Source: a virus. From it: DNA of 33,476 nucleotides. The notes beneath the pieces were generated by a model. The model was given only the letters and a program-made list of their open reading frames with translations, was not told where the DNA came from and did no database searches. This document shows positions 7,305-30,127 of the stretch, piece by piece. The first letter of the stretch is position 1. Each line of letters opens with the position of its first letter. Location: positions 1-33,476 of the IMG/VR virus record IMGVR_UViG_3300035698_030612, one strand, 5' to 3'. Both the position numbers and the translations under genes were made by a program.

Positions 7305-7538
7305 TTACCTTTTTATTAAGTTTCGAATACATAGATCACTATACATATCTTTAGCCACAATATTTACCGAGTCTATCTTTCTTTTTTGTCCTTGAATTTC
7401 CATATAAAATAATTTTTTACCTACAATGGATGCTATCCTTACATTGATGTTATCATTTTCATTAATATATACTAAAACTTCTTCTGCTGGACTAAATTCA
7501 AAAATGTCAGAACCAGATGCAACTGTTACTACGAGCAT
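7305..7538 (-). CDS. Unknown small beta-rich protein
   Basis: This 77-residue protein, beginning MLVVTVASGSDIFEF, is mostly predicted beta strand with several Val/Ile-rich stretches and a basic C-terminus (NLIKR). The start is supported by GGAGG 7 nt before the ATG. It is the last gene before the 7259-7298 terminator, next to the sigma-region-4-like gene. I considered CsrA because of the MLVV start and the length, but the CsrA core motifs are absent. Function unknown. Confidence 0.75.
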   Translation of the reverse strand: MLVVTVASGSDIFEFSPAEEVLVYINENDNINVRIASIVGKKLFYMEIQGQKRKIDSVNIVAKDMYSDLCIRNLIKR

Positions 7539-7560
7539 TTAATATCCTCCGCCTATGACA

Positions 7561-8016: not shown

Positions 8017-8038
8017 ATATAATACCTCTGCCGAGTCA

Positions 8039-8812: not shown

Positions 8813-8817
8813 ATTTA

Positions 8818-9147
8818 TTATTCCTTATCTTTATTTTCTAAATACATTTTCAGACCTTTAATAAAAGCTGCCGTAACTGGTACTTGATTACTACAAGATT
8901 TACAATATGCTTTATCACTTTCAACATATAGTTCTCTATGGCACTTACACTGACTACAATTAGCTTGAAAAGCTGTCTTTGCTTTACTTCGTAGTACTTG
9001 TCCTATAGATGCGAGAGCTTTTTTAGTAAAAGGTGTAATGTTTGCAATAATGTTACCACACTCTGCACATATTACTTCTCCAGAATCTCTATCTAGCTTA
9101 GCTTCACTTTGCTGTAAACAGCCTTTGGTCGTACAATTTATAAGCAT
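8818..9147 (-). CDS. Double zinc-ribbon protein
   Basis: This 109-residue protein contains two zinc-ribbon-like units: C5 and C10 with CAEC at 27-30, and CSQC with CKSC further on. The two units look related in spacing (the strand between the pairs is 16-17 residues), which suggests duplication. A short helical segment, PFTKKALASIG in the first and VTAAFIKGLKMYL in the second, follows each unit. It lies between RecA and the primase core, with a strong AGGAG site before the ATG. A nucleic-acid or protein-binding role is inferred. It might supply zinc-domain functions to neighbouring replication proteins, though it lacks the CHC2 pattern. Confidence 0.8.
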   Translation of the reverse strand: MLINCTTKGCLQQSEAKLDRDSGEVICAECGNIIANITPFTKKALASIGQVLRSKAKTAFQANCSQCKCHRELYVESDKAYCKSCSNQVPVTAAFIKGLKMYLENKDKE

Positions 9148-9149
9148 AT

Positions 9150-10307
9150 CTACTCCTCCTCAGTTTCCTGAATTATTTCATCCCACCCTGCATCTTCATC
9201 ATCTTCAGTTTTATTAATGACAAGAGGACCTTGAGTGCGAATAGCTTCTTTAGCTTCTTTAATTTTTTCAAACATTTCTTCTTCTAGTTTGTTTTCTTTA
9301 ATGGCATTATAAAATATATCTCTGCCAGAATACTTTTCATCACCATATAAATATGTTCTATTATTTGGTCTAGTAACTACACCATACTTAATTGCCAAAT
9401 CGCCAATTTCAATATGTCTGTCTACAACTCCATCTACATATTGAACTCTAAATTCACAAGACTTCATAGGAGGAGCGACTTTATTCTTATCTATTCTTGC
9501 CATAACTATGTGGCCAATTGGGTCACCATTGTCATCAAGTATTTGTTTATCTTTCGCCATTGATTTAGTAAAATTGACCATCATAGAACAATGGTGCTTC
9601 CACGCAGAGCCTCCAGGCGTCCCTTCTGGATTACCAAACATCTGGCCGGGATTAATTCTAACTTGATTTATGGCAATAAACATAACACCAGTCTCACTTA
9701 ACATTGGTGTTATTTTCCGCAATTCTGGCGGCAAAAATCTTGCCATAAGAGCCATATTACTTTTACCAGACTTGCTAGCCATTTCTAACGGAGGAGCTAT
9801 TGCCGCAACGCTATCTAATACAATAATTCCTAATCCTGACTTTTCTGCTCCTCCCATATTTTTAACAATATCTAAAAGTCCTGGTTTTACCTTTGACTTC
9901 CCGATTTCTTTATGCGGCACGCCACATAACATTTCAAAAATCTTTGCGGCGTCATTTTTTCTTGATATGCGCAATTTATCTTTGCTTACATCAACTCCTA
10001 AACTTTTTGCCCAATCTTCATCATAAGTAAACTCTGCATCTATAAACAGCGCCCAGTTTTTAGGGTCTCGACTCTGCCATTCTTTAATAGCCATAAAACT
10101 CATTAAAGTCTTACCACTACTTTCTCTTCCAGCAAATTGAATTATTCTTCCCATTGGGTTTCCCCAAATTCCCAGAACATCATCTAATGCTAGACTTCCC
10201 GAAGATAATGCGGTTACCTGTTCTACATCTGCCAAACCATTGTCGCCGTAGAGCTTTTCCATTTCACCCCATATGGCTTCCATACTACTCTTCTCTTTTT
10301 TCACCAT
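9150..10307 (-). CDS. recA: RecA/UvsX-family recombinase
   Basis: This is a RecA-type strand-exchange ATPase: it forms a filament on single-stranded DNA and catalyses pairing with homologous duplex. Walker A is GRESSGKT at residues 60-67, with the catalytic glutamate in FIDAEF (E92). Walker B is IIVLDS (161-166), and the switch glutamine is in AINQVR (Q215). The loop after it has GTPGGSAWKHH, matching the RecA L2 and core region. Length 385 is near bacterial RecA (about 350), with an acidic C-terminal tail (EEE) typical of RecA. AGGAGG sits 6 nt before the ATG, which lies inside the end of dnaJ (23-nt overlap). Confidence 0.97.
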   Translation of the reverse strand: MVKKEKSSMEAIWGEMEKLYGDNGLADVEQVTALSSGSLALDDVLGIWGNPMGRIIQFAGRESSGKTLMSFMAIKEWQSRDPKNWALFIDAEFTYDEDWAKSLGVDVSKDKLRISRKNDAAKIFEMLCGVPHKEIGKSKVKPGLLDIVKNMGGAEKSGLGIIVLDSVAAIAPPLEMASKSGKSNMALMARFLPPELRKITPMLSETGVMFIAINQVRINPGQMFGNPEGTPGGSAWKHHCSMMVNFTKSMAKDKQILDDNGDPIGHIVMARIDKNKVAPPMKSCEFRVQYVDGVVDRHIEIGDLAIKYGVVTRPNNRTYLYGDEKYSGRDIFYNAIKENKLEEEMFEKIKEAKEAIRTQGPLVINKTEDDEDAGWDEIIQETEEE

Positions 10308-11271
10308 TTTGTCCTCCTTGTTTTATAGTGGCATCCAGCTCTTTTAACAAGCCTTTTTGTTCCACTGTAAGGTCTTCTGGTAATTTCATATTTATCTGAA
10401 CAAAATGATCTCCCTTTTTTCCTGAAACATTTTTCATTCCAGATTCTTTAATTCTAAGGACAGTACCAGGCTGACAAGTAGGGACTATTTTGACTAATTT
10501 TTCTCCAGATAGGGTTTTCACCTTTATACTTCCGCCAAGCAATGCTTCAAAAACACTTACCGTAGCACTACTTGCGGTATCTAACATATTTTGGGCAAGC
10601 TCATACTCTTTATGAGGAACATACAATATAATAATGTTCAAATCTTTTTCAGGAACTATTTTTGCTCCGTGAGCTATACCGGCAGGAATATCAATCGTAA
10701 GTTTTTGAGTTTTTCTAATATTTCCAGATCCATTACAACCAGCACACTTTGAAGAGACTTCTTTTCCAAAACCCTTACAACTTGAACAGGTCGTTACCAT
10801 GTGTACGACGCCATGTTGTACTCTGACTTGTCCGTTGCCATTGCAGTTTTTACAGGCATTATCTGTAAATATAAATCCGTTGCCCTTACAACTTTCACAC
10901 TTTACAGAATTAGCAATTTCAATTTTTTTGCTACATCCAGAATAAGCTTCTTCTAAAGTAATTCCAACTTTCCCAGTTCTTACAGATTTAGTGTTTCTTC
11001 CAAACGGATTTCCACCGCCGAAATGCATATTAAACATTTCATTAAATTTAAACATATCGTCTATATTATTAATGCCAAAATCCATATTTGGCGCTTCTTG
11101 CCAGTTATTCTTCTTTAAGGTTTCAAAAGCTTCGCTGATCTCTTTAAATTTTTCTTCATCTCCCGAATGTATGTCGGGATGCCATTTCATAGCAAGATCT
11201 TTATATGCCTTTTTTATTTCATTTTCTGAAGTGCCTTTTGAGACGCCCAGAACATCATAGGGATTACTCAT
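10285..11271 (-). CDS. dnaJ: DnaJ (Hsp40) co-chaperone, full domain set
   Basis: DnaJ delivers unfolded clients to DnaK and stimulates its ATPase. The J domain (residues 1-60) has HPD at 31-33. A short Gly/Phe-rich part follows (to about 92). The zinc domain has all four repeats: CESCKGNG (125-132), CKNCNGNG (140-147), CSSCKGFG (162-169) and CAGCNGSG (176-183). The C-terminal substrate domains follow, with a recognisable ALLGGSIKVKTLSG. At 328 residues it is somewhat shorter than the E. coli protein. No dnaK or grpE is visible here, so it presumably works with the host DnaK. It sits between the ruvC-like gene (8-nt overlap) and recA (23-nt overlap). Confidence 0.97.
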   Translation of the reverse strand: MSNPYDVLGVSKGTSENEIKKAYKDLAMKWHPDIHSGDEEKFKEISEAFETLKKNNWQEAPNMDFGINNIDDMFKFNEMFNMHFGGGNPFGRNTKSVRTGKVGITLEEAYSGCSKKIEIANSVKCESCKGNGFIFTDNACKNCNGNGQVRVQHGVVHMVTTCSSCKGFGKEVSSKCAGCNGSGNIRKTQKLTIDIPAGIAHGAKIVPEKDLNIIILYVPHKEYELAQNMLDTASSATVSVFEALLGGSIKVKTLSGEKLVKIVPTCQPGTVLRIKESGMKNVSGKKGDHFVQINMKLPEDLTVEQKGLLKELDATIKQGGQNGEKREE

Positions 11272-11869
11272 TTATTTCTCCACGTTTAATTAAATCTAAA
11301 CAGCATCCCCAAGCAGTAGCTATTCCATCAGCTTCATCATAGGTTTCATCTTTAATATTATGTTTAGAATTTAACATATCATCAAAGCGTGGCTCTAATC
11401 CCAATCTTATAATATTTGGTAAATCCGTTTTAGCTATTGTAGTAGTTCTTTTAAGAGATTTTTTAATTGTAGCTCTTATTGTTTGAACCGGATAAAATAA
11501 AATCTCTTTATTAGTCTGCCTATATGCCGATAAAGCTATTGTTCTATTAAACACAGCCAATGTGGTAATTGTTTTTGCTCCCGACTTTCCCTTCATAAAA
11601 AGCAAAATATCTTCTACCGCTATATGTGATGGAGCAAGTTCTTCACAAAGATCAGATATTTTTATATATATGTCATTTAATCTATCAACTATAGAATTCT
11701 TGTTATCAAGAGGTTTGATGTGTCCGTATGAAATTAAAGACAGAGAGTGGTCGCATCCTATTGAAATAAGTCCCCATCCAACAGTCTTAGAACTGCAATC
11801 TAATCCTAAAACTCTAGTTTGAGAGTTTTTGTTTGATAAAACTATAATTCTTTCTTTTGTCTTAACCAT
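11264..11869 (-). CDS. ruvC: RuvC-like Holliday junction resolvase
   Basis: This 201-residue protein has the RNase H-fold pattern of RuvC endonucleases, which cut Holliday and branched DNA symmetrically. LGLDCSSKTVGWGLI (21-35) carries the first acidic residue, D24. IAVEDIL (83-89) carries E86. DETYDEADGIATAWG (174-188) carries the final acids, D178 and D181. A basic segment (IKKSLKRTT) lies between. The 20-residue N-terminal extension before the first strand may mean the true start is later, but the ATG at 11869 follows the previous stop directly. In a phage this enzyme would resolve recombination and packaging intermediates, with RecA encoded just downstream. Confidence 0.9.
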   Translation of the reverse strand: MVKTKERIIVLSNKNSQTRVLGLDCSSKTVGWGLISIGCDHSLSLISYGHIKPLDNKNSIVDRLNDIYIKISDLCEELAPSHIAVEDILLFMKGKSGAKTITTLAVFNRTIALSAYRQTNKEILFYPVQTIRATIKKSLKRTTTIAKTDLPNIIRLGLEPRFDDMLNSKHNIKDETYDEADGIATAWGCCLDLIKRGEINE

Positions 11870-12552: not shown

Positions 12553-13245
12553 TTACGCGTCGTCGTCTCCGAAATCGAAAGTACCTTCTTCAACTTCTGG
12601 TTTTACACCAGCTTCTGTATTTGTCACGACAGCTGAACCAACAGCATAGTGCTGACCCGCACGAGTTGCACCACCACTTAGAGGCGCATTACCCATCTTT
12701 TCTGCAACCTCTTCAGGCGTAGATGGTTGGGTAAACTTAGAAATTTCTACTCTCTCAAGAAAAGCTTCGACAGCAGTTACTTCCTCGTCTGTAAGGTCCT
12801 TCATTTTAGGACTTGGTAATACGGAATATAGAGGAGTCGTGCCTTTCGGCCCGCGTTTAATATTAATATCATATCCCATTACTTGTCCCCAACTATGCTT
12901 ATACATTTCGTTCCAATCTTCAGAGCTGACATAATCCCTAATACCCTTGTAAATCTGACTTCCGATTTCAAGGATCTTAACTACTCCACCAGCTCTCTCA
13001 ATCACTCCTAGATACCAACGAGTTTGAGATTTAACTCCAGAACGACACAATGGGCAGTTGTTAATTGCACAGCGAATTTTACGAGTGCTGCCAGCAGCAT
13101 CTTTTGTCCAGTGAACAACAAACTGATAAGGGTTTGTTACAACCCTAACAACATTGCTACCTTCCGCAAGATTCATAAAATCATTCTGTCCAGAAACATC
13201 TCCATCGTCCCAACTCGCTAATTGTCCATATTTTACTTCGGCCAT
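12553..13245 (-). CDS. T4 gp32-like single-stranded DNA binding protein
   Basis: This 230-residue protein is a phage single-stranded DNA binding protein. A candidate zinc site is H45, C59, C64 and C67, in the same order and similar spacing to the His-Cys-Cys-Cys site of T4 gp32 (the last pair is CPLC, two residues apart). Aromatic and basic residues surround it, as expected for an OB-fold DNA groove. The C-terminus is a Gly/Glu/Asp tail ending FDFGDDDA, like the acidic protein-docking tails of gp32 and SSB. A strong TAGGAGG site precedes the ATG, and a strong terminator follows. Both fit the high expression expected for such a protein. Its partners here would be DnaE, RecA and the primase. 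Confidence 0.88.
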   Translation of the reverse strand: MAEVKYGQLASWDDGDVSGQNDFMNLAEGSNVVRVVTNPYQFVVHWTKDAAGSTRKIRCAINNCPLCRSGVKSQTRWYLGVIERAGGVVKILEIGSQIYKGIRDYVSSEDWNEMYKHSWGQVMGYDINIKRGPKGTTPLYSVLPSPKMKDLTDEEVTAVEAFLERVEISKFTQPSTPEEVAEKMGNAPLSGGATRAGQHYAVGSAVVTNTEAGVKPEVEEGTFDFGDDDA

Positions 13246-15049: not shown

Positions 15050-15098
15050 TATTAACTTAATTTATATTAATAGTTTGTCAAGTATTTTTTACAAACTA
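15050..15098 (-). promoter_or_regulatory. TTGACA box and AT-rich inverted repeat after dnaE, possible weak promoter
   Basis: On the minus strand a perfect TTGACA (15081-15076) is followed by an AT-rich stretch ending in TTAATAATAG. No -10 hexamer stands at 16-18 nt; the nearest lies about 20 nt away. TAGTTTGT (15071-15078) and ACAAACTA (15091-15098) form an 8-bp inverted repeat around it that overlaps the dnaE stop. It could give the 15028-leftward genes extra transcription, or act as an operator. Confidence 0.25.
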
Positions 15099-18000
15099 TA
15101 AGCTTTTTCTATTTCTCTTAACATAAGGGATTTTGTTCCATTAAACTCGCTTACTTGACAAACAGCCCTAAACGGTCTTCCTACTATTATTAACTTTTTA
15201 GCCTGTTCATACTTGTCTGGCCAAATTGTAAGTTCCGTTTCAGTACCAACAGCATCTTCTATTAAGTACTTCATCATCGGCTGACCTTTATATCTTCCTG
15301 TTTTTATTTTAAATTCTCTTAAAAATGACTTGGCTATTGCCTCAACAACCATTTGATGTCTATTTGGAAGAATCCTAAGTCTACCTATTGGTGTGATGTT
15401 ATATCCAGTAAAAAATCCGGGAAACAAATCGTTTAAGGAGCCTGAAATCAACTCTCCGAGAACTTCTTTTTCACATCTTAACTTTTCTTGTTGAGACCAA
15501 TCTTCTCCTGGGAAATCAATCGGAAACTCATCAACTGCCATCCCTGAACTATATCCATCTTTTACTTTCTTTTTAAGATATAGTTTCATTTTATCTCTAA
15601 TTTTTTTAGCCCCATCAAAAGCATCTTTTCTCGTAATATCAAAAGAGTCGAAACAACCTGATTTCGCAAGAACTTCTAACTTCGTTTTATTAACTACTCT
15701 TGCGTTTAACCTATACAGAAAATCTTTAAAAGATCCATATGGTTGATTACTTATAACTTCAGATATAGCTTTTTCTCCCATACCTTTTATGGCAGAAAGT
15801 CCCATAACAATAGTTTCTTCATCTAAAACTTCATATCCAGAACTGCTTCTATTTATATCTGGAGGTATAATTTTTACTCCAATTCTCCTACATTCCGTTT
15901 TAGCCATATTTATCTCATCTTCTCTGTTTAAACCTCCTTTGTTTGTTTTTACTTTTAAATATGCGGCCAAAAACGCGGCTGGATAATGGCATTTTAAAAA
16001 TGCCGTAATATAACTGTTTATTGAATAAAGAACCGCATGGGATTTATTAAATCCGTATCCGCTAAACTTTTCTACCACAGTATCCCAAATCTCTTTAGCA
16101 AGTTCATATTCAACCTTGTGGGTATTCATCGTACCTTCGATAAACTCCGTTTCTAACTGTAAAGCTAACTTAGGGTCTTTACCCTTTAATTTTGTATATT
16201 TTCTAAGTCCATCAGCTTTATTGAGATCCCAACCAGCAACTTCTTTCGCGACATCCATAAGTTGCTCTTCCATAATACATAAGCCATATGTCTGTGACAA
16301 ACATTTTCCTAAACTTGGATGTAAATATTCTGGGCTACTTGACCCAAATCTTCTGTCTATATACATCTGTCGTTCATTTTTAGAAGACGGACGACCCAAA
16401 GCGTTAATTGCGGCTATGTCCAATATGGTTCTTGGCTTAATTTTTTTACACAAAGATACCATCATACTTGATTTCCCTAATTGGAAAACACATTTAGTAT
16501 GACCATCTTGAATCATTTTATAAGTATCGGGATCATCAAGAGGGATATCCGTCATTTGCTTTGGTCCATCATGAATTCCAAGACGCTTAACGTTTTTAAA
16601 TGTCTCATCAATAACATCTAAAGTAGATATTGCTAAAAAGTCCATTTTAACTAAGCCGACTTTTTCACATCGGTTTTTCTCATATTGAACTGCCGTAATA
16701 CCATTTTTATCAACTCTAAGTGGAGCGAACTCAATAATGGGAATGTCAGATACCACCATTCCAGCCGCATGGGTGGAATACTCTTTTGGCATTCCAATAA
16801 TAGCATCTGCATATTCCATAAGTTCCGGGCACCTGTCGGCAAACTTTTTAAGCTCTGGAGAAAGCTGAATAGCTCTTTCAAGAGTCTTTACTTTGTTTTG
16901 CTTATGATCCATATCTGGAATAACTGCCTTAATTGCTTCAGCCACTCTTACATAGTACTCTCCCTCACCAATAAGGTTTGGCATAACATTCCTCATAGTT
17001 TTAACTAGATCTGGAATTACATTTTTTGGAGTATATGTATTAATGTTAGATACTTGGGCACAATGATCTCTACCATATTTGTTTCTAACATATTCTTGAA
17101 CAGCATCTCTGCCAGCAGATGTAAAGTCAGTGTCAATGTCTGGTAAATCTTTTTTATAAGCATTTTGAAATCTTTCAAATAAAAGATTATATTCTAACGG
17201 ATCTACACCATGAATGTCTAAAAGATGAGCAACTAGAGAACCGCCGACCGAGCCGCGCCCGTAACCTACCAGAATATCATGGTTTTTTGCCCACCTGATA
17301 AAATCTGCCGTAACCAACAGATAGGAGGAAAAGTTATTTGCTTCTAATATTTTAAGTTCTTTCTTTACTCTATCCCATCTTTCTTTTTTAAAGTCTTTTG
17401 GCATATGAGAAAACTTTTTCTTAAAACCTTCTACTACTCTATACCTCATATATTTTACATCTGTAGACATGTTTTTAGGAAAACTAATACTTTCTGACCA
17501 TTTTGAAAATGCGTCGAAATCATCTTCACCAGTTGGATCAAAAACCGGCAAATGATTTCCTACAGTTTCCATATATTTAGGCTCTTCACACATTTCTGCA
17601 ATTTCCACAGTATTTTTAATTGCTTCTTCAGCAATAGTTTTCCCATGATGTTTTTCTAAAAATGTATATATTTCATCTCCGCTTTTAACATAAAACTCAT
17701 CTATTCCATATCTATGCCTATCAGGGTCATCCACCGGTTTTTTAGAATTAATTGCCATTAAAACATCGTGGATCTTTTCAGACTCTCTAGTTATGTAATG
17801 TGCATCGCCCGCTACTATTATTGGAATTCCAAGTTTCTGTGAAAGATTAATTAACTTTTTATTTAAAAATATTTGGTCTACTCTATCATTTTTTAATCCA
17901 TGTGGCTGAATTTCTACATAAAATCTGCCATCATATATTTTTGCCAACCGTAATGCAGTTTCATTTAAACTTTCATCATCATCATTAAAAACGTGTTCAG

Positions 18001-18469
18001 CAAGTATCCCACCGCAACATGCTGACATTGCAATTATACCTTCTGAATACTTTTCTAAAGCCGTCCAATCTACTCTTGGAAAAACTCTACCCATTGCAAC
18101 TACTTTATTTTGAAAACCTTCATAATTAATTTTCAATAAATTTTTATATCCCACTTCATTTTGGGCTAAAAGAACAATATGTTTTCTTTTCTCAGTTCTA
18201 GCTCTTTTTGTTTTGCTATTTTCATCAATTGGTAGGTTTTCATACGAACGCACAAAATACATTTCACAGCCGGGAATGAACTTAATACCAGTTCGCTTTG
18301 ACGCTTGAAATGCGTCAAAATGACAAGCAAGTGTTCCGTGATCCGTAACTGCTAAAGATTTTTGTCCTAGTTCATTTGCTCTGTTAAATAGATCGTCTAC
18401 ATACGACAGAGCGTCCAACATCGATCCCAAATTGGTATGCATGTGGAGATTAACAAACTCTCTAGACAT
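15089..18469 (-). CDS. dnaE: DNA polymerase III alpha subunit (DnaE) with PHP domain
   Basis: This 1126-residue C-family replicative polymerase is near the usual bacterial length (E. coli 1160). The N-terminal PHP domain keeps a full set of candidate metal ligands: H9, H11, D19, H44, E69, H97, C151 or C152, D222 and H224. This suggests an active built-in 3'-5' exonuclease, unlike the degenerate E. coli domain. The polymerase core has YGRGSVGGSLVA (403-414), PDIDTDF (443-449) with the two catalytic aspartates, and VKMDFLAIS with the third. GYGFNKSHAVLYS marks the fingers/thumb region. A C-terminal OB-like domain (LTIWPDKYEQ) follows. No epsilon or clamp gene is in the window. GGAAG precedes the ATG. 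Confidence 0.97.
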   Translation of the reverse strand: MSREFVNLHMHTNLGSMLDALSYVDDLFNRANELGQKSLAVTDHGTLACHFDAFQASKRTGIKFIPGCEMYFVRSYENLPIDENSKTKRARTEKRKHIVLLAQNEVGYKNLLKINYEGFQNKVVAMGRVFPRVDWTALEKYSEGIIAMSACCGGILAEHVFNDDDESLNETALRLAKIYDGRFYVEIQPHGLKNDRVDQIFLNKKLINLSQKLGIPIIVAGDAHYITRESEKIHDVLMAINSKKPVDDPDRHRYGIDEFYVKSGDEIYTFLEKHHGKTIAEEAIKNTVEIAEMCEEPKYMETVGNHLPVFDPTGEDDFDAFSKWSESISFPKNMSTDVKYMRYRVVEGFKKKFSHMPKDFKKERWDRVKKELKILEANNFSSYLLVTADFIRWAKNHDILVGYGRGSVGGSLVAHLLDIHGVDPLEYNLLFERFQNAYKKDLPDIDTDFTSAGRDAVQEYVRNKYGRDHCAQVSNINTYTPKNVIPDLVKTMRNVMPNLIGEGEYYVRVAEAIKAVIPDMDHKQNKVKTLERAIQLSPELKKFADRCPELMEYADAIIGMPKEYSTHAAGMVVSDIPIIEFAPLRVDKNGITAVQYEKNRCEKVGLVKMDFLAISTLDVIDETFKNVKRLGIHDGPKQMTDIPLDDPDTYKMIQDGHTKCVFQLGKSSMMVSLCKKIKPRTILDIAAINALGRPSSKNERQMYIDRRFGSSSPEYLHPSLGKCLSQTYGLCIMEEQLMDVAKEVAGWDLNKADGLRKYTKLKGKDPKLALQLETEFIEGTMNTHKVEYELAKEIWDTVVEKFSGYGFNKSHAVLYSINSYITAFLKCHYPAAFLAAYLKVKTNKGGLNREDEINMAKTECRRIGVKIIPPDINRSSSGYEVLDEETIVMGLSAIKGMGEKAISEVISNQPYGSFKDFLYRLNARVVNKTKLEVLAKSGCFDSFDITRKDAFDGAKKIRDKMKLYLKKKVKDGYSSGMAVDEFPIDFPGEDWSQQEKLRCEKEVLGELISGSLNDLFPGFFTGYNITPIGRLRILPNRHQMVVEAIAKSFLREFKIKTGRYKGQPMMKYLIEDAVGTETELTIWPDKYEQAKKLIIVGRPFRAVCQVSEFNGTKSLMLREIEKAYSL

Positions 18470-19193: not shown

Positions 19194-20534
19194 TTATCCT
19201 AGTGGGTTATCAGGTATGATATCAAGATCCGCATTTGAATCTGATTCTTCACCTTTAACAGTTATGGCTGCTTGACTTAAGATAAAATCCATAACTTTTT
19301 TATACTTCAAAATACTAAAAACTGAATCCAGCATTCCTTTTTCTTGCAATTCTTTCTTTAAAACTAAAACACTAACCTCTTTGGCTTCAGCTTCGTTTTT
19401 CAAAAGCTCTTCGAACTCTTCTTTTTTAACTGCTAAACTTGGCTCAGCATCATAAACAGCATCTAACATAAACATTCTTTTAACATTTCTTTTTGCCATG
19501 TTTTCAACATGATCTGCTATTGACGGATCAGAATTTTCCATAAGACCAAGTTGATTAACTACATATCTTTTTTCATCCGTAATCCACTTTTCTGGAACAT
19601 CAAAATCATGTATTTTTAAAAGCTTATCAACTATTTGCTCTTCCAACATATTTCGTTCTTTTTTAGTAGCTTCTTGTTGCACATATCGCTTAAGGACATT
19701 TTTCAACTCATCAAATGACGGAGCCTCCATTTTTTCTGCAAGTTCTTCATCTGTTGGATTTTCTGTTCCTAATACTTTTTTGATAGTTATTTGGACAGGA
19801 GCTTTTTTTCCGCCATAATCTTTCTCTTCATACACATACTTGGCAGGAAGTTCAATTTCTTCAACTAAAGAATCCCCAACTTTAAATCCTATAAGGTTTT
19901 CTCCAAAAGGAGGCTCTTGTCCAGATGTAATTAAGAATCTATGGTCTTGTCCAGAAGATAAGAGTTTTTCTTCACATGTCACAGAAAAATCTACCAAAAC
20001 TACCGTATTGTTTTTAACCTTATCTATATCACTTTCATTTTGATATTGTTTCCTCGCATCTTCTATGTGGTCTTCTAACATCTTTTCAACATCTTGACTA
20101 GTTTTCTCTAATTGCATTCCGACATATTCTGTAGGATTTATCTCTGGTCTAACTTCCATTAAAATATCACAAGAGAATGTGCCATCAATATGTATTTTAG
20201 CTAGTTCTATTTTAGGCTCTGTTAAAGCGTGAAGTTTGTTTTCAAAACAAGCGTGTAAATAACCCTCTTGAGAGAGAGCCGTTAAAACTTCTGTTTCAAT
20301 TTCGTCTTTACAAACCCTCTCAACTAGTTGAATTGGTGCCTTTCCCCTTCTAAAACCTTTCATTTGCCTTCTTTTATTGACTTTTGTAGCCACTTTGTCT
20401 ACGGCCATCTTAACAGCTTCTACATCATATGTTATATGAACTTTTCTTTCTAATCCACCCACACTTTCTACAATTACTGTGTGATGCCAATCTTCTTTCT
20501 CTTCAACAACACTCATTTTTTCTTCAATGTCCAT
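19194..20534 (-). CDS. tig: Trigger factor (ribosome-associated chaperone and peptidyl-prolyl isomerase)
   Basis: Trigger factor binds at the ribosomal exit tunnel and shields nascent chains. The N-terminal domain carries the ribosome-docking signature GFRRGKAP at about residues 60-67, followed by the family's conserved helical region (IQLVERVCKDEIETEVL). A middle FKBP-like domain (VLVDFSV, FGENLIGFKVGDS) and a long helical C-terminal chaperone domain follow. At 446 residues it matches the bacterial length (about 430), with a polar acidic tail ending DNPLG. I prefer the second of two adjacent ATGs (20534) because AAGGAG then has 5-nt spacing. The start overlaps the end of the zinc-finger gene. 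The call is firm; a complete trigger factor is unusual in a phage. Confidence 0.95.
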   Translation of the reverse strand: MDIEEKMSVVEEKEDWHHTVIVESVGGLERKVHITYDVEAVKMAVDKVATKVNKRRQMKGFRRGKAPIQLVERVCKDEIETEVLTALSQEGYLHACFENKLHALTEPKIELAKIHIDGTFSCDILMEVRPEINPTEYVGMQLEKTSQDVEKMLEDHIEDARKQYQNESDIDKVKNNTVVLVDFSVTCEEKLLSSGQDHRFLITSGQEPPFGENLIGFKVGDSLVEEIELPAKYVYEEKDYGGKKAPVQITIKKVLGTENPTDEELAEKMEAPSFDELKNVLKRYVQQEATKKERNMLEEQIVDKLLKIHDFDVPEKWITDEKRYVVNQLGLMENSDPSIADHVENMAKRNVKRMFMLDAVYDAEPSLAVKKEEFEELLKNEAEAKEVSVLVLKKELQEKGMLDSVFSILKYKKVMDFILSQAAITVKGEESDSNADLDIIPDNPLG

Positions 20535-22461
20535 CATTTCTCCTTATTTTATCTATTTTAGTCTTCGCTACCACCACTTTGTTTTTCCAAAATTCCCAAA
20601 ATGACGAATCAACGTTTCCAGTTTCTTCTTCATCTAATATTTTTTTAATAACGTTTTTCAACACCTTTGTTCTAAGTCTTAACATTCTCTGGATAGGTGC
20701 ATGAGTAGGATGTCCAGACATTATTAAGGCGTCTATTTTAACTACATCTCCAACTTCTAACGAAGAGTTAGAGCCCAACTTTATAGACTGCCAACTAAAA
20801 AAATCGACATCTTTTAAATGATTTTTATATTTATCAGAAACACTATTTGTAATTTTATAGATACCGTAAATTTTAGCCATTCGTGGAGAATAAGAGTCTG
20901 ATAAAGATCGAACATTTATATTACTTACAATCTTTCTTTTCGAATTAACTTCAGACATAAAAGATATTACAGGGCCGCCAGAAAATTTAGGTCCACGACA
21001 AAACCACTTTATATCTTTAAGATCAGCTATTTTAGGATCTAGTTTTTTAAACTTTTTAATATTTTTCTCTATAACACTGATCCATTCTTGGAAAAATGTA
21101 AAATGTATTGAAACTTCAGTCCCCCCTTTTTTATTAGACTGATTAAAGAAATATATTGAAGCATCTTTCCAATATTTTGAAATCCACACTATTGAGGCTT
21201 CGTAAAAACACCAAGACATTAAACCAGAAACGGATCTAATATTGAGTTTTGACATATTTATTATAATTTCATTTATAATAAATTCTGCATATTGTTTGTG
21301 CTGAATATCACTGTTGTCGCTATATGTTGCCGCAATGTTATTTTTAGATTTACTATTTATAGTATCTTCAGTGTTATCAACATCTAGTGAATTAAGTTCT
21401 TCTTTTACCCAAATAGATATCGCGGGCAATCCCGTCAAAAATCCTGACATCTTTTTAAATCCGGACCTAGATTTCAACGCGCTTCTAGGAGTGAACTTAG
21501 TATCACAAAACGGACACGTCAAGTCAAAATCCATCAATTCTTTAGGAGGATGTTTAAATGATTTTGTATTTTTTGTTATTGAGAAGTTTTTCAACACGCC
21601 ACTTAAATTAACTTCTTTAGAATTTGTTGTTTTTTCATCCACACAAGTTAGTGGAACAAAGTTGCCGCTACAATTATCTGAGGGACACACACAAGTTACG
21701 CCACTAAAACGATCTGAAAAATATGATACCTTTTTAAGCGTTTTTAAACAAATATTTTTTTCTTTAACATTTGCCTCAAGGTTTCTTTTAATATCGGAAC
21801 ACCTTGGACAAGAAAACTGTTTAAAAGAATGCCTTATTACTGGAGTTTTAAATTTATTTTTTGAAGAAAGACACATTGGACAGGCTAAAGTAGAAGTTAG
21901 TTTAAATCCCATATCTGTTGCTATTTCACGAATAGTTTCATTTTTAATAGATTTTATTATATAACCGCTAGGTTCAGATAAGTAAATTTTAGAAAGCCAT
22001 TTCCTCTTTAAATATGTTTTTAAAGAGTGGTCTACTTTTTCTATTATTTTGGCTATTCTGGCTTTTCCACAAGAAAGATCTTCTAATTGTTTTCCAGAAA
22101 CAGTTACTTCATTTTTTTCGTCATCAGAAAATAGTGGAAACTGTGCAGATCTCTGTATAAACCGTCTCCACTTCACACTGTCAAACCACATTTTACCAAA
22201 CAGTATAATAGCATTTGGTAAAATCCACTTGTTATAAACTTCTACGTTGTTTAAACATGCTGGCCAATTTTCTGGATTTCCAACAACAGCATTAAATTCT
22301 TTTTTAGAGTCTATGTTTGAAAATATACCTAAAGCATATTCTCTATTTGGACTTGGCCAAATGCCATCGGATTGATATCGTCTTTCCTCTTCAAACAGAA
22401 TTTCTTCAGGTCCTATTTCTGTAGCATGTTTGGAAAGCCATTCCCTTGCTTCATCTGTCAT
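20524..22461 (-). CDS. Large multi-zinc-finger protein coupled to the sigma factor, function unknown
   Basis: I place the start of this 645-residue protein at ATG 22461, which overlaps the sigma factor stop in an ATGA junction and has AAGGAAAG ahead; the longer frame would overlap by 55 nt. A helical N-terminal part is followed by several cysteine pairs: CPMC (194-197), CPRC (218-221), CVC with C264 and C273, and CPFC (316-319). These probably form two or three zinc ribbons. The C-terminal half has Trp-rich stretches and no recognised catalytic motif. Pairing with the sigma gene suggests a transcription partner, for example a late co-activator or polymerase-binding protein, but this is inference. 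Confidence 0.75.
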   Translation of the reverse strand: MTDEAREWLSKHATEIGPEEILFEEERRYQSDGIWPSPNREYALGIFSNIDSKKEFNAVVGNPENWPACLNNVEVYNKWILPNAIILFGKMWFDSVKWRRFIQRSAQFPLFSDDEKNEVTVSGKQLEDLSCGKARIAKIIEKVDHSLKTYLKRKWLSKIYLSEPSGYIIKSIKNETIREIATDMGFKLTSTLACPMCLSSKNKFKTPVIRHSFKQFSCPRCSDIKRNLEANVKEKNICLKTLKKVSYFSDRFSGVTCVCPSDNCSGNFVPLTCVDEKTTNSKEVNLSGVLKNFSITKNTKSFKHPPKELMDFDLTCPFCDTKFTPRSALKSRSGFKKMSGFLTGLPAISIWVKEELNSLDVDNTEDTINSKSKNNIAATYSDNSDIQHKQYAEFIINEIIINMSKLNIRSVSGLMSWCFYEASIVWISKYWKDASIYFFNQSNKKGGTEVSIHFTFFQEWISVIEKNIKKFKKLDPKIADLKDIKWFCRGPKFSGGPVISFMSEVNSKRKIVSNINVRSLSDSYSPRMAKIYGIYKITNSVSDKYKNHLKDVDFFSWQSIKLGSNSSLEVGDVVKIDALIMSGHPTHAPIQRMLRLRTKVLKNVIKKILDEEETGNVDSSFWEFWKNKVVVAKTKIDKIRRNDGH

Positions 22462-23015
22462 ACTTTCCTTGCTTCTTTTAATTTTCTCCTTAAAGCTCTG
22501 GTAATTCCCCAAGGAGAAAAGTTTTCATCACTGGCGACTTCAGATATCTGGTCTCCAACTACAAATATTCTAAACATTATGTTCTTCCATCTATTATCCC
22601 AAGTCTTTATTCTTTGAGATAACTCAATTTCAATATCAGGGTCTCTTCTGATAGCTGCAAAATTACTCTCATCCGACATACATACAAAATCTAACTTGTT
22701 TCTTATATTTTTTCTAAACAGATCTATAGATTTGTTTTTGCCAATTTTATATAAAAATGTTGAAAGGGATGCACCTTTTTTAGGATCATATTTAACAATA
22801 GACTCTAACATTTCTAAACATATTTCCTGTTTAGCATCATCTATGTTGAAAAACATTCCTCTTTCCAAACTATTAAGTGCCATTGATGTTATAATGGGGT
22901 TCATAATTTGGAAAACTTCATGAAACCCTGTTCCGTCAGACGTATCTATGTAGACATTCTTATTAAGAACGGAAACGTTTCCATGGAAACGCTTATTTAT
23001 ATTCAAGGTTTTCAT
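22458..23015 (-). CDS. Phage RNA polymerase sigma factor (sigma-70 family, gp55-like)
   Basis: This 185-residue protein has a clear sigma-70 region 2, which binds core polymerase and opens the -10 element. At residues 57-102 it reads FNIDDAKQEICLEMLESI, then YDPKKGASLSTFLYKIG, then IDLFRK. A second conserved helical part at about 140-185 (FRIFVVGDQISEVASDEN and ITRALRRKLKEARK) looks like a reduced region 4. The small size resembles T4 gp55, the late sigma. It would redirect host polymerase to phage promoters, possibly the TATAAATA sites at 4003 and 6001. The start has a weak GGT site and follows the nuclease stop closely. The next gene overlaps it by ATGA. Confidence 0.88.
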   Translation of the reverse strand: MKTLNINKRFHGNVSVLNKNVYIDTSDGTGFHEVFQIMNPIITSMALNSLERGMFFNIDDAKQEICLEMLESIVKYDPKKGASLSTFLYKIGKNKSIDLFRKNIRNKLDFVCMSDESNFAAIRRDPDIEIELSQRIKTWDNRWKNIMFRIFVVGDQISEVASDENFSPWGITRALRRKLKEARKV

Positions 23016-23018
23016 TTT

Positions 23019-23777
23019 TTACCAGGTATTTAGACAGGGATGTTTGAAATCACACCAATCACATAATATAGAAGGTTTAGAAATCCACCTTTCTTCTTCT
23101 GTGATGTTTTCAGCATATTTTATAAGATCCTTTTTAATTTTTAATATATCTTCCTTATTAAAATCGTATGATATTAACATACCGCCGAATCTCATCATAA
23201 TATAAGATCCTCTAAATCTATCCAGATCTGGATATTTTTCTAGCAAATATATGCCGTATGTGTTGAGTTGAAAGGGCTCCATATATTTAGGATTTTTATT
23301 TGTTTTATAGTCTTTGATATGGAGAGTACCATCTTGGTCTCTATCTAACCTGTCTACAAAACCTTGTACAGAAAATCTCTCATCTAATGCTATATTAAAT
23401 TTATCTTCTAATGCTATAATTTCAGATCCAATACCATCTGTTTCCATTCTTTTGAGATATTCTGTAAGTAGATCTCTTGCCTCTAATAGAATCCCATGAT
23501 TTAATGGCTTTTCTTTTTCCATAGCCTCACGCTGTCTGGCAAAAGAGGTCTTCATTACTTTTTTTAAATTAAATATAGATTTTTTATCATCAGTTTTAAA
23601 CTCTTCATGAAAAAATTCTAAAGCTCCATGAACTAAGGTTCCAAGGTCAAAATGAAGCCACTCTTTCCTAGGCAACCTTTCAATGTAGGTATAATAATAT
23701 TTTCTTGGACACTGTTGGTAAGTTTTTACTCTTGATGCCGATAAAGTGAGTATTACGTTTTCTTTGTCTTGTTCCAT
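23019..23777 (-). CDS. PD-(D/E)XK nuclease with candidate Fe-S cluster (Cas4/RecB/AddB type)
   Basis: This 252-residue protein is of the RecB/Cas4 nuclease family, which trims DNA ends. Family motifs are the N-terminal SASRVKTYQQCPRKYYY, the active-site histidine in GTLVHGAL (H50), GFVDRLDRD with D142, IKDYKTNK with D156 and K158, and QLNTYGIYLL with Q170 and Y174. Four cysteines, C23 and then C239, C242 and C248 near the C-terminus, match the iron-sulphur staple of AddB and Cas4. It probably processes DNA ends for recombination or replication. AGGAAAA precedes the ATG. There are no cas genes or CRISPR repeats nearby, so a spacer-acquisition role is not supported here. Confidence 0.9.
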   Translation of the reverse strand: MEQDKENVILTLSASRVKTYQQCPRKYYYTYIERLPRKEWLHFDLGTLVHGALEFFHEEFKTDDKKSIFNLKKVMKTSFARQREAMEKEKPLNHGILLEARDLLTEYLKRMETDGIGSEIIALEDKFNIALDERFSVQGFVDRLDRDQDGTLHIKDYKTNKNPKYMEPFQLNTYGIYLLEKYPDLDRFRGSYIMMRFGGMLISYDFNKEDILKIKKDLIKYAENITEEERWISKPSILCDWCDFKHPCLNTW

Positions 23778-25539: not shown

Positions 25540-28290
25540 TTACTGTTTAAGTACACTCCCTGACGGACCTTTTTGAATTGTTATGATATTTTCGAACTTC
25601 TCTTTCATGGAGTCGTTATGTGTTATAACAAGTATTTTCATCTTTTTAGCCAGAACATTTATTGTTTCCGACAAGGCTTCAATGCCCTGTCTATCCAACG
25701 CTTGATCAACTTCATCTAAAAGCAAAAACTTAACATTACTGCCAACACGTCTCATAAGCAACTGACTCAAAGCCAACCTGAGTGCTATAGACATTCTAAC
25801 TTGTTCTCCACCACTAAGATCACCAAAATCAAGTATGTCGTTATTTATATTGATCTTTATATCAAAATTTTCTTTCCAAGTGCCCGTAGTAGTTTGCTTT
25901 TGTGTTACAAAATCTATAGTCATTTGATCATTACAAATTTGTTTTAGTATAAAATTCGTATACTTACGCAGATCCTCTGTAACATTTTCCATAATTATAG
26001 ATTGAATTCCATCTTTTCCAAAAGCTTTAGATATATTAGAATATACATCTATACTATTAGATATTTTATTTTTCTGTTCTTCAAGTGTGCGTTTTTCAGA
26101 AAGTCTTCTTTCTAATTCCTCATCATATCCTTGTAAGTATCCTAATTCAATACTTAATTTCACCATTATTTTCTTAACATTTTCATTACTTAAGAAAAGT
26201 TCATCTCTCTCCTCTATTGCTTTTTCTAATTGCGATTCTATTAAAGATGTTTCTCCATGAGATTTTTTTAAAACAATAAGGCGATGTTTATCCTCTTCAA
26301 AAGTGATTAAGTTTTCTGCTATTTTTATTATTTCTTTTTGTATAGCCTCATTATTTCTAGTTATATCTGTCGTGACAGACATTTTTTTAGAAATTATAAG
26401 ACCATATCTTTCAACATTAACCCTTGCCTCAAAGGCTTTGTTTATGGCTTTTTTTTCTTCTTGTATAGAAGAAATAAGACCATCTACTAGTGCCGTCTCC
26501 TCTTCTATTCTGTTTTTAATAAATTTTTCTTTTGCCGACCTCCTGTTAAGAACTCCTTTGGGATTTTTAACTTCTATTAAACAAGTCGGACATTCTTTGC
26601 CTGGTTTTAAAATTGTCAGATTTTTAAGATCTTTTTTAAGCCCATCTATAATAATTTTGTGATCATCTCTTCTATTAACCTTATCGTCCAGTGAAGACTG
26701 ACTATACAAAGCTCTCGGTGCTCGGCTTTTGTATATTTCTAAAAACCTATCTTCACCTGTCCCTCTGTCAGGATGTTCTACCAAAAGTATCTCTTTATAA
26801 AAATCTTCAATCTTATTTTCTAATAATCTGCATTCATTTTCTGCAGCCGAGTAATCGGAAACATTTTTAATCAGTTCTTTTTTTAACTCTTTTCTTCGCA
26901 AAATAATTGATTTAGACATTTTTACTATTATGTCTAACTCTTCTTTATTTTTTTTACTATCAAACTTCCCGTCAAACGCTAGCATATTTTCTATTTTAGA
27001 AATTTCACTTAATTTAATTGAAAGCTTTTTTTCTGCAACTTCCCCCTTTTTTTCTAAAGTAGACATATGTTCTTCAATTTCTTTTATTTTATCATCATTT
27101 TCTTTCTTTTTTACGTCCACACCACTAATAACTTTAATTCGCTCTTCTAAAACTTCCTTTTGTGATGAAAACTTCTTTTCAGATTTTTTAGATATTTTGT
27201 AAAATACATCCCAAATTCCTATTTGCAGCACTTCTTTTAGAACTTCCTTTCTTTCTGAAGTGCTGGCCGATGCGAATCCTGAAATATCATTTTGTCTAAA
27301 GTAATTAGAATTAACAAACGTACTATCATTCATATTTATTACTTCTACAATTTTTCTATTTGTTATAGTAGAGGTATCACACGACAAACCTTCAGAATCC
27401 CAGTTATCTTTCATTTTTTTAAAAAAAGCTACATCGGTGGTCGCAGACTTTTTATCAAGTTTTCTTATAATTTTAAAATGTTCTCCGTTAGATTCAAATT
27501 CGAAAATAACAGTACAAGACGCCTTTCCTCTTTTAACAACTTTATTTTTAGTACTAAATCTGCTTTTACCATAAAGAGACCATCGCATCGCATCGAAAAT
27601 GGCCGAGTTGTGAACGATAAATGTTTCTGCAATATAAAGATGCTCTTTAGAATTAACCTCTATATCAAAACATTCTATTTTTTCACTTTGCTGCGATATA
27701 TTAGTAATTCTGGTCCATAAAATATCAGAATCTCCAACCTCCTTGTTACCACCATATTTTAAATAATTTTTTCGTGACATAGCGTGGTTTGAAAGTCTGG
27801 TTTTATCTATCCCTTTAGTTGTTGACAAAGATTTACAAAATTTTTCAGGTACGCCATCAAAAGGGATTGTTCTAGTTTCTGCTATCCAATCTCCAATAGA
27901 TAAGTTTTCACTTGAAATGCAACCACTGGGTGTAAGAAAGGGATGCGTAGCTGCCGCAACTATTTTGGCTCCACTAGATGTTTCTATACTTAAAACATTC
28001 TTTTTTCCTAACTCAAACCAATTAACGACTTCTACTGGAACTACCTTGCCACTAACCATTCCTAACGTTTTTTTCCTTTTTTCCTGAACGAATGTTTTAA
28101 TGTCAATAGCCTCTTTTTTGTCGACATCATATATTAATGTATCTCCAGAAAGGCACTTTCCGACGCCATTGGAGACATCTGGATTTCCACTATGAGCACC
28201 TATTAAAAGAGCCACGTTAAACTGCGTAAAGTCTAATTCGGAATAGACATGTGATATGAAATTTTCCAATGTCAATTTGAGTGGGATCAT
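25540..28290 (-). CDS. sbcC: SbcC/Rad50-type ATPase (T4 gp46-like) interrupted by an intein
   Basis: This 916-residue protein is the SMC-like partner of the SbcD/gp47 nuclease, acting on DNA ends. The N-terminal half of its ATPase has NGVGK split from SAIF by an intein at residues 46-228. After splicing the Walker A motif NGVGKS is restored, and the host protein would be about 733 residues. A long coiled coil is rich in Lys and Glu, and the zinc hook is CPTC at 567-570. The ABC signature LSGGEQ (825-830), Walker B FLLLDEVDQ (855-863) and the switch histidine in ITHN follow at the C-terminus. The start overlaps the sbcD stop (ATGA). Confidence 0.95.
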   Translation of the reverse strand: MIPLKLTLENFISHVYSELDFTQFNVALLIGAHSGNPDVSNGVGKCLSGDTLIYDVDKKEAIDIKTFVQEKRKKTLGMVSGKVVPVEVVNWFELGKKNVLSIETSSGAKIVAAATHPFLTPSGCISSENLSIGDWIAETRTIPFDGVPEKFCKSLSTTKGIDKTRLSNHAMSRKNYLKYGGNKEVGDSDILWTRITNISQQSEKIECFDIEVNSKEHLYIAETFIVHNSAIFDAMRWSLYGKSRFSTKNKVVKRGKASCTVIFEFESNGEHFKIIRKLDKKSATTDVAFFKKMKDNWDSEGLSCDTSTITNRKIVEVINMNDSTFVNSNYFRQNDISGFASASTSERKEVLKEVLQIGIWDVFYKISKKSEKKFSSQKEVLEERIKVISGVDVKKKENDDKIKEIEEHMSTLEKKGEVAEKKLSIKLSEISKIENMLAFDGKFDSKKNKEELDIIVKMSKSIILRRKELKKELIKNVSDYSAAENECRLLENKIEDFYKEILLVEHPDRGTGEDRFLEIYKSRAPRALYSQSSLDDKVNRRDDHKIIIDGLKKDLKNLTILKPGKECPTCLIEVKNPKGVLNRRSAKEKFIKNRIEEETALVDGLISSIQEEKKAINKAFEARVNVERYGLIISKKMSVTTDITRNNEAIQKEIIKIAENLITFEEDKHRLIVLKKSHGETSLIESQLEKAIEERDELFLSNENVKKIMVKLSIELGYLQGYDEELERRLSEKRTLEEQKNKISNSIDVYSNISKAFGKDGIQSIIMENVTEDLRKYTNFILKQICNDQMTIDFVTQKQTTTGTWKENFDIKININNDILDFGDLSGGEQVRMSIALRLALSQLLMRRVGSNVKFLLLDEVDQALDRQGIEALSETINVLAKKMKILVITHNDSMKEKFENIITIQKGPSGSVLKQ
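27607..28155 (-). other. Mini-intein inserted in the Walker A motif of the SbcC/gp46 homologue
   Basis: The intein runs from C46 to N228 of the precursor (183 residues). It begins with CLSGDTLIYD (block A), has the block B core THPFL with T115 and H116, and ends with FDIEVNSKEHLYIAETFIVH then N, the F/G block, followed by serine as the +1 residue. A Cys first residue, a terminal His-Asn and a +1 Ser are the standard splicing residues. No LAGLIDADG or HNH endonuclease block is visible, and 183 residues is too short for one, so this is a mini-intein. It splits GK|S of the P-loop, a favoured and highly conserved insertion site. Confidence 0.93.
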
Positions 28291-29489
28291 TCGGAATACC
28301 TCTCTTTAATTATCTTGCTACCAATTTTTTTCATTTTCTCTTTCATATCTTTATCATCTATAAACTCTAAGTAATCCAAAAAGGATTTTAACGGATCTAT
28401 TCCCTCAGTTATAGTAGCTTTTCGTAATTGTCTTTTAGTAACTACTTGAACATGTATGTTAACGCAATGACTAATCTTTACCTCTTTTTTTAAGAAAATT
28501 TTGATTTTATCCTTATCTAAATCATATGTTGATTTTTCATTTATAAAAATATTAATTCTTACAATAGAATCTATCATATCATTCTTTTTTGAAAACTCAC
28601 TTAAAAATTCGATACACTCTTTCGTTACTTTACTACTCTTTGTAGTAGACTTATCTATAGTAATGTCATAGATCGGTCTAATTGGCAAGTTTTCAAATTT
28701 AAATAGGATATCGTTGTTAATAACTTCAACAAGCAATAGGTACTTGTTTTGCCCCGCATCTCCAAAATCTTTTCTTTCCATAGATCCTACATACGCAATG
28801 AGCGGATCTTTTCTAATAATTTGATGAGGGTGTACATGACCCATTATCACTCCATCTATTCCATTAAACATTGATTGGGGCAGGACAACTTCTCCTCCAT
28901 GTCCTTCTAAAACAGTATTTCCAAGCATTGTTCCTTGCAACATGAAATGACCTATTAATATTTTCGGGCCATCTTTAATGCTCCTAATTTCATATTGAAG
29001 CCTGTCTCGCAACCTGTCAACCGCTTCATCATTACTTTTACAATCTAACATTCTTTTTGTTCTAAAAGGAAAAAATATTAAATTTATAACATCTGAAGTG
29101 GTACTATCAGTACAAGCAATACTGTTTATATCAGCATAAACATGAACTCTGGGCAATTTTAAACATCTTAAAACATCAATTGTTGTAGCTCTCTGTTCTT
29201 GTATTAGGTCGTGATTACCAATAACAATGTGAGTATGTATTCCAAGTTCAGATAATCTTTGAATTTTTTCGGAAAACATCCCCAGCTCTGATGCTTGTGG
29301 ACGACGATATTCAAAAACATCTCCAGTTATTACTAAATGTTTTACTCCATTATTAATCATGTAATCAATTGTAAAATCAAAAGTATTAGAGAAATCAAGT
29401 AGTCTGGAATTTAACTGCCTATGTGAATCTATTCTTCCTAATGAATAGCCCCCACCAAAATGTGTATCGCCAAGAATAACTACTTTCAT
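28287..29489 (-). CDS. sbcD: SbcD/Mre11-type nuclease (T4 gp47-like)
   Basis: This 400-residue protein is the nuclease partner of the SbcC/gp46 homologue, processing double-strand ends for recombination. Calcineurin-fold motifs are GDTHFGG with D8 and H10, ITGDVFE (D57), GNHD (91-94, with N92, H93 and D94), IGHFM and GHVHPH near residue 230. A capping domain and a helical C-terminal part rich in Lys/Glu, likely to bind the partner, follow. The start overlaps the stop of the CHC2 gene by ATGA, with GGTGAATT ahead. The stop overlaps the next start, so the pair is coupled. Confidence 0.95.
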   Translation of the reverse strand: MKVVILGDTHFGGGYSLGRIDSHRQLNSRLLDFSNTFDFTIDYMINNGVKHLVITGDVFEYRRPQASELGMFSEKIQRLSELGIHTHIVIGNHDLIQEQRATTIDVLRCLKLPRVHVYADINSIACTDSTTSDVINLIFFPFRTKRMLDCKSNDEAVDRLRDRLQYEIRSIKDGPKILIGHFMLQGTMLGNTVLEGHGGEVVLPQSMFNGIDGVIMGHVHPHQIIRKDPLIAYVGSMERKDFGDAGQNKYLLLVEVINNDILFKFENLPIRPIYDITIDKSTTKSSKVTKECIEFLSEFSKKNDMIDSIVRINIFINEKSTYDLDKDKIKIFLKKEVKISHCVNIHVQVVTKRQLRKATITEGIDPLKSFLDYLEFIDDKDMKEKMKKIGSKIIKERYSE

Positions 29490-30127
29490 AATTCACCATT
29501 TTTATTTCTTTTAGAAATGCTCTTTTTAACCTTATCTGCTAAATTCTTAGCATACTCCCAATCTTCATGTCCTATGTTAGATAAAAATTCGTCTACCTTT
29601 TCTCCAACTTTTTGTGTCCATTTAAATTCTTTTTCAAATGAACTCGTTCTTATAAACTTTTTAATATAACCTCTTATAGAATTACCTATTTCCAACAAAT
29701 AAGGCTCTATGGTTTTCTGAGGATCAAAAACTGGTGATAAAAATTCTAATGAATCTAGTTTTAATTCATCCCACTTTCCATCCTTATCCATAATTCCTAT
29801 ATCTTTGGCTAATTTTTGGAGTGCTATTAAAGGGGGAGTTCCGTCAACAAGACTTACAAAATTTATAACTGTTCCAGTCGCATTACAACTAAAACAAAAA
29901 AACGAATTTGTTATATCAGATACAAACATAGACGGCGTTCGCTCTCTTCCATTGTTTCCTTTCCCTTTGTGAAAAGGACAGAAGCATCTGTGTGTAAATT
30001 CTTGCCCGGTAATTTTGCTTTCTAACTGAAGTCCATATTTGTTCATAAGTTCAACTATAGATACTTGTGAAATTATTAGATTTCTATATTTCCAAGCCGT
30101 GTCGGGATCGTTTTCTAAAAATTCCAT
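29486..30127 (-). CDS. Free-standing CHC2 zinc-finger primase protein
   Basis: This 213-residue protein carries the N-terminal zinc-binding domain of DnaG primases, which reads the initiation triplet on template DNA. It has CPFH (C50 and H53) and FFCFSC (C78 and C81), with the lead-in QVSIVELMNKYG and the end GTVINFV. No TOPRIM or polymerase motifs follow. Residues from about 105 on are helical and charged and match nothing I recognise. The catalytic half of a DnaG is encoded separately at 8039-8812, so the two probably form one primase. GGTGGAAT stands before the ATG, which lies inside the end of the FtsK-like gene. Confidence 0.9.
   Translation of the reverse strand: MEFLENDPDTAWKYRNLIISQVSIVELMNKYGLQLESKITGQEFTHRCFCPFHKGKGNNGRERTPSMFVSDITNSFFCFSCNATGTVINFVSLVDGTPPLIALQKLAKDIGIMDKDGKWDELKLDSLEFLSPVFDPQKTIEPYLLEIGNSIRGYIKKFIRTSSFEKEFKWTQKVGEKVDEFLSNIGHEDWEYAKNLADKVKKSISKRNKNGEL

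Follow-up and report, generated by a model that had tools for sequence, protein, structure and literature searches.

A predicted trigger factor, inherited together with DnaJ, in the replication block of a huge-phage lineage

The stretch of DNA analysed here, referred to as the window, is a linear IMG/VR record of 33,476 bases. It carries, all on one strand, a replication and recombination module made up of a DnaE-type polymerase, a single-strand DNA-binding protein (SSB), RuvC, DnaJ, RecA, split primase domains, SbcC/D, an exonuclease and an FtsK-like ATPase (Table 1); no tRNA and, over the 33 kb, no recognised virion gene was found in it. The trigger factor (TF) gene lies between the exonuclease/sigma-like pair and the polymerase, with dnaJ ∼5 kb past the polymerase. 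It is an uninterrupted frame of 447 codons; read on the plus strand, the interval is stop-riddled. The original prediction, 19194–20534, located the gene correctly but left the minus strand unstated; of two tandem ATGs it took the second, at 20534, and the frame begins with the first, at 20537. An AAGGAG Shine-Dalgarno sequence lies 5' of these ATGs, and the upstream gene, which encodes a zinc-ribbon protein, runs 14 bp into the TF gene (spacing in relatives, −32 to +11 bp). The overlap of the gene ends suggests that the two proteins are co-translated. The zinc-ribbon protein is a conserved neighbour only in clade A, the clade of the window TF, and neither its sequence nor its low-confidence model gave a Pfam, PHROG or PDB match (E≤0.001).

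Table 1. Features of the window and, in the last row, of two relatives.
Feature	Position	Strand	Evidence or remark
Phage trigger factor (predicted), 447 aa	19194..20537	-	Pfam, NCBIfam, AlphaFold2, PDB matches
TF ribosome-binding domain (RBD)	residues ~19-133		GFRRGKAP loop at 61-68
TF FKBP-like domain	residues ~170-259		
TF helical C-terminal chaperone domain	residues ~134-169 + 260-422		
TF C-terminus			disordered acidic tail, last residues IPDNPLG
Zinc-ribbon protein, 662 aa	20524..22512	-	conserved upstream neighbour in clade A
DnaE-type DNA polymerase III alpha	15089..18469	-	conserved downstream neighbour of TF; block anchor
SSB	12553..13245	-	
RuvC-like resolvase	11264..11869	-	left border of DnaJ/GroEL slot
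DnaJ	10285..11271	-	Pfam; J domain (HPD), CXXCXGXG zinc finger, C-terminal domain
RecA-like recombinase	9150..10307	-	right border of DnaJ/GroEL slot
Sigma-70 region 2 protein	22458..23015	-	upstream of TF
PD-(D/E)XK exonuclease	23019..23777	-	conserved upstream border of TF slot
GroEL in DnaJ slot, two relatives	L159:15927-17567; L162 ~7354-9010		

Pfam recognised Trigger_N (6.6e-25) and Trigger_C (8.3e-14) in the product, which scored 199.6 bits with the NCBIfam tig equivalog TIGR00115 (cut-off 180.2), and E. coli TF structures aligned with it end to end. In the AlphaFold2 model (pLDDT 92.9) all three domains are present. The top PDB matches of the model (Foldseek, VIA) were the E. coli and T. 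maritima TFs, with full-length matches to 1w26 and 3gty. Compared as a whole by VIA, it gave Z 19.5 over ∼400 residues with an rmsd of 8.3 Å, which fits hinge differences; the RBD alone matched 1oms with Z 13.6 and an rmsd of 2.4 Å. Residues 171–261 matched FKBP and SlyD structures (Z 9–10.6), and residues 275–422 are modelled as the helices of the C-terminal chaperone domain. From the family matches, the score above the tig cut-off, the full-length alignments and the model, we conclude that the product is, as judged from sequence and predicted structure, a genuine trigger factor. It is full-length, as had been claimed, and the docking signature GFRRGKAP and the helical chaperone domain are where they were expected; the isomerase-like middle domain has the proposed FKBP fold but has lost the usual isomerase pocket. 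Chance resemblance and a truncated TF were considered and rejected. In one relative (G003, L014:1094-2448) a frameshift at the RBD/FKBP junction splits the TF into ORFs of 157 and 298 aa; the split may be an error of sequencing, a sign of decay or the mark of a TF truly made of two parts.

Assignment of the window to a phage, as originally predicted, follows from its IMG/VR record and from a syntenic clade A relative of 340 kb (G010/L111), in which genes for the terminase large subunit, portal, tail sheath, baseplate wedge and tail fibre, and 15 tRNAs, were found. The terminase of this relative shows at most ∼25% identity to the best GenBank phage hits, among the matches listed, indicating that cultured phages give poor coverage of the lineage. 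Relatives of the TF were gathered by scanning IMG/VR with the polymerase and then with TF alignments, with follow-up searches; this route was needed, a scan of IMG/VR with the single TF sequence having given no match. The search of other large phages that had been proposed thus yielded ∼70 phage relatives: TF was present in 72 IMG/VR contigs, the window included and some of them near-duplicates (12 in clade A, 5 in group B, 10 in group C and 45 more reached through the polymerase). The largest were of 481, 459, 452, 435 and 433 kb; some of these phages are of 340–481 kb. Scanning genomes with the alignment of clade A returned no bacterial relative, and the model found no match among BFVD viral structures at E≤0.001, which is not proof of absence. 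TF of this lineage was not found in GenBank phages; the matches there were gut or wastewater contigs without annotation. The sole annotated case, ‘Acinetobacter phage MD-2021a’, proved to be a bacterial contig with tig-clpP-clpX and leuA. L247 (CAKLQH020000005.1) and several OR84xxxx and MT83xxxx GenBank ‘phage’ records are likewise bacterial (tig-clpP-clpX) or bacterial-looking, a trap for automatic claims of phage genes. Three IMG/VR matches (L125, L130 and L131), which lacked DnaJ and clustered with bacteria, were dropped.

The balance of conservation between domains was compared in ten aligned members of clade A. Mean pairwise identity was highest in the RBD (0.60), followed by the C-terminal domain (0.50) and the FKBP domain (0.42); in the bacterial TF set the order was reversed, with FKBP (0.40) above RBD (0.31). 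The GFRxGK signature is retained in all aligned viral TFs except for one F-to-Y change. Bacterial TFs usually possess the residues of the isomerase pocket, which chaperone function does not need. At these positions, numbered as in E. coli TF by alignment, all clade A members aligned (10/10) had I195 deleted, G197 lost, F233 replaced by V and F177 by L, I or V. The pocket residues are intact in group B TFs and partly so in group C. The window TF lacks the usual pocket of bacterial TFs, a character that was not used in assigning it to the family. Prolyl-isomerase activity is unlikely in clade A TFs. The combination of a best-conserved RBD with a degraded pocket, considered with what is known for E. 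coli (PMC8185961), suggests that docking on the ribosome and chaperoning, rather than isomerisation, have been under selection. A further character restricted to clade A TFs is the terminal motif [IV]P[DE][ND]P[LF] (window 19194–19220), found in the window TF and in 8/10 clade A blocks checked; L140 and the split copy of L135 do not have it, and none of the other ORFs in the checked blocks contains it. The motif looks like a short binding or recognition tail.

The genes around TF keep their order in three deeply divergent groups: SbcC, DNMK, a CHB_HEX-domain protein, exonuclease, sigma region 2, TF, polymerase, SSB, RuvC, DnaJ, RecA, Toprim and sigma region 4, with some members undetected in some loci and RecA moved or undetected in groups C and D. 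This synteny is kept across ∼60 loci. The end of TF lies 548–3361 bp from the polymerase start (median 1350, n=60 loci), and DnaJ starts 2.6–8.6 kb after the polymerase (n=54). Several proteins of the block are interrupted or divided. The SbcC-like gene of the window (25540–28290) contains an intein (Intein_splicing 3e-13), polymerase ORFs in L134, L136, L138, L139, L146 and L150 exceed the usual size by 1.3–2.5 kb, probably through inteins, and Hint/LAGLIDADG domains were seen in the portal gene of the 340-kb relative. The sigma-70 region 2 protein and a sigma region 4-like helix-turn-helix protein (7561–8067) are separate, small, ∼15 kb apart and both conserved in the block; they are possibly a split sigma factor. 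The primase is split as well, with the DnaG zinc finger CHC2 (29486–30127) and the DnaG catalytic core/Toprim (8039–8812) in separate genes ∼21 kb apart.

The presence of DnaJ in the window had been noted before and holds, the protein having all three expected domains, although it scores below the curated cut-off for the bacterial DnaJ equivalog (225 versus 377 bits). Every contig searched in groups A and B has DnaJ, as do 7/9 of group C, where the two contigs without it stop ∼5.4 kb after TF, short of the expected DnaJ position, and 41/41 TF-carrying contigs of the next set. Among loci with long enough flanks, 51 had both genes, 7 had neither, none had DnaJ without TF, and three cut loci had TF without DnaJ (Fisher 2.8e-7, a value from related sequences that overstates independence); for two of the three (G047 and G062), DnaJ lies further along the contig. 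TF and DnaJ are inherited together. All 21 phage DnaJs compared share the HPD motif unchanged, and a search of 41 contigs gave no DnaK, from which we conclude that host DnaK is the likely partner of the phage DnaJ.

Two relatives carry the same block with GroEL exactly between RuvC and RecA, in the slot of DnaJ, and have no DnaJ. One of them (G031; GroEL of 546 aa, Cpn60 1.5e-54) has complete flanks and no TF either; in the other (G034; GroEL of 552 aa) the TF slot lies off the contig. Strict exclusivity of TF and GroEL was tested and rejected, as GroEL is present, away from the block, in four TF-carrying phages (G010, G012, G033 and G067). The exchange, seen in two contigs, is displacement within the slot rather than strict exclusivity. 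We read the occupation of the DnaJ slot by GroEL as evidence that the function of the slot is protein folding.

The phylogenetic check proposed with the original prediction, host gene against old phage lineage, came out in favour of the latter. In a tree of 99 rows, all viral TFs (51/51) fell on one side of a branch separating them from 48 bacterial TFs (support 95/91), and the same branch was recovered with 46 rows (97/96). In the first tree 25/28 viral rows grouped together; the other three were the bacterial-like outliers, left out later. The trees are unrooted and have long branches, and several phyla are absent from them, for example Patescibacteria and Planctomycetota. Forcing clade A to join Bacillota TFs, Desulfobulbales-type TFs or Bdellovibrio/Geobacter TFs was rejected by the AU test (p 1e-6, 0.0015 and 0.008, respectively). 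The closest bacterial TFs share 22–29% identity with the viral TFs. Identities of TF and polymerase were correlated over 53 loci (Mantel r 0.968, 0/999 permutations), again with independence overstated by relatedness. Given the single viral branch, the rejected groupings and a divergence that tracks the polymerase, the viral TF is, on this phylogenetic evidence, an old phage lineage and not a recent host gene. The window TF is nested in no sampled bacterial group, and the two objections raised in advance, that the contig is bacterial or that the gene nests within a single bacterial genus, do not hold for it.

We consider it probable that the protein is a phage-adapted TF, a ribosome-docking holdase that forms, with the phage DnaJ and host DnaK, a folding pathway carried by the phage. 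During infection, the GFRRGKAP loop would dock the phage TF on uL23 of host ribosomes, at the exit tunnel. The helical cradle would then shield nascent chains, presumably chiefly those of large, abundant phage proteins, with the FKBP domain serving as structure or binding surface and having no role as a prolyl isomerase. Chains would be handed on, and the co-inherited DnaJ would recruit host DnaK, since these phages carry no DnaK. TF and DnaJ would together make a two-step phage pathway that works alongside host TF and may compete with it. A supplementing role fits as well as the originally proposed replacement of host TF, under which phage proteins would fold preferentially. We infer the timing of TF action, its benefit to the phage and any displacement of host TF.

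A different function, off the ribosome, is conceivable. TF and DnaJ could act mainly in folding or remodelling the replisome (polymerase, SSB and RecA) encoded alongside them; in every group examined the replication block contains both genes, and TF evolution follows the polymerase. Replication of lambda likewise uses DnaJ and DnaK. Nevertheless, shared position may mean only early or middle co-expression, and a role off the ribosome would not demand that the RBD be the best-conserved domain of clade A; we regard this explanation as unlikely, and it is the conservation of the RBD that makes a co-translational folding role the favoured one. The phage TF could also be a competitor or decoy that occupies uL23 to exclude host TF, signal recognition particle (SRP) or SecA, or to blunt a defence that senses folding, rather than to fold phage proteins. 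TF, SRP and SecA do share uL23 (PMC8185961). Phage T4 ModB ADP-ribosylates Arg45 in the FRK motif of host TF (PMC3014915), so that the docking site matters to phages, and bNACHT25 sensing has been linked to DnaJ, according to work cited in PMC12619734. A decoy, however, would have no need of the conserved C-terminal chaperone domain or of a DnaJ inherited along with it, and the GroEL that fills the DnaJ slot in relatives points to folding. We judge this second possibility improbable, somewhat more so than a replisome chaperone.

Still less probable is a role chiefly as an adaptor that feeds substrates to ClpXP. In E. coli, ClpXP degrades lambda O and SsrA-tagged proteins faster with the help of host TF (PMC7804408), and ClpP is encoded in 3/5 group B and 5/9 group C contigs; it is, however, encoded in 0/12 clade A contigs, the window among them, and the phage TF is not adjacent to clp genes. 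Finally, the bacterial tig genes in mislabelled phage records and the three IMG/VR outliers raise the prospect of recent capture of a host gene, or bacterial contamination, with no phage function. The single supported viral branch, the rejected joins with three bacterial groups, the synteny and the structural genes of the syntenic relative leave this with next to no credence.

TF is treated as a housekeeping protein of bacteria and chloroplasts. The phage TF shares with bacterial TF (tig, TIGR00115; E. coli 1W26, 2MLX and 2VRH) its three-domain architecture, GFRxGK loop and full-length alignment, and differs in sequence (∼20–29% identity), in the pocket lost from the clade of the window, in the clade A tail, and in its location in a phage replication block rather than beside clpP and clpX. 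We rate it as a variant of a known family, not a new kind of system. Its match to phrog_26774 (3.6e-38, residues 21–426, labelled ‘unknown function’), a family in which PHROGs v4 had already clustered some TF-like phage or prophage proteins without annotation, indicates that databases already contain such proteins, unnamed. The open-access literature searched gave no description of a TF encoded by a phage, and TF is unmentioned in the main text of papers on jumbo phages (PMC7824862), bS21 phages and moraphages (PMC12619734). According to a viral survey of the Southern Ocean, its viral proteins included no TF analog that could be detected (PMC8407431). As here, the DnaJ-like Rki of RB43 (Perrody 2012) and the DnaJs of jumbo phages and moraphages (PMC7824862, PMC12619734) are predicted to recruit host DnaK; those other J-domain proteins are described as sporadic or without TF, whereas here DnaJ is constant and linked to TF, and moraphages have a family B polymerase where the TF lineage has a DnaE-type enzyme. 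Phage GroEL/GroES-type chaperonins are also phage-borne folding machinery, but belong to an unrelated family and act post-translationally, unlike a ribosome-docked TF. Huge phages are likewise known to carry factors for the host translation apparatus (Al-Shayeb 2020, PMC7162821), listed as IF, EF, RF, rpS21 and PDF; neither ‘trigger factor’ nor ‘chaperone’ occurs in the main text of that report.

Taken together, TF and DnaJ suggest that these phages come equipped with a large share of their own machinery for protein folding, which they bring into the host. We propose, tentatively, a large lineage of huge phages with an obligate, vertically inherited TF–DnaJ folding module in the replication block, its isomerase disabled in the clade of the window and the module displaceable by GroEL in the same slot, which would make nascent-chain folding semi-independent of the host. 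The clade A TF would then offer a natural example in which evolution has disabled the isomerase domain of a TF and spared docking. Conservation of a viral TF in huge phages would make the reason for phage-borne chaperones testable, and would add the exit tunnel to initiation and elongation among the parts of translation that phages take over.
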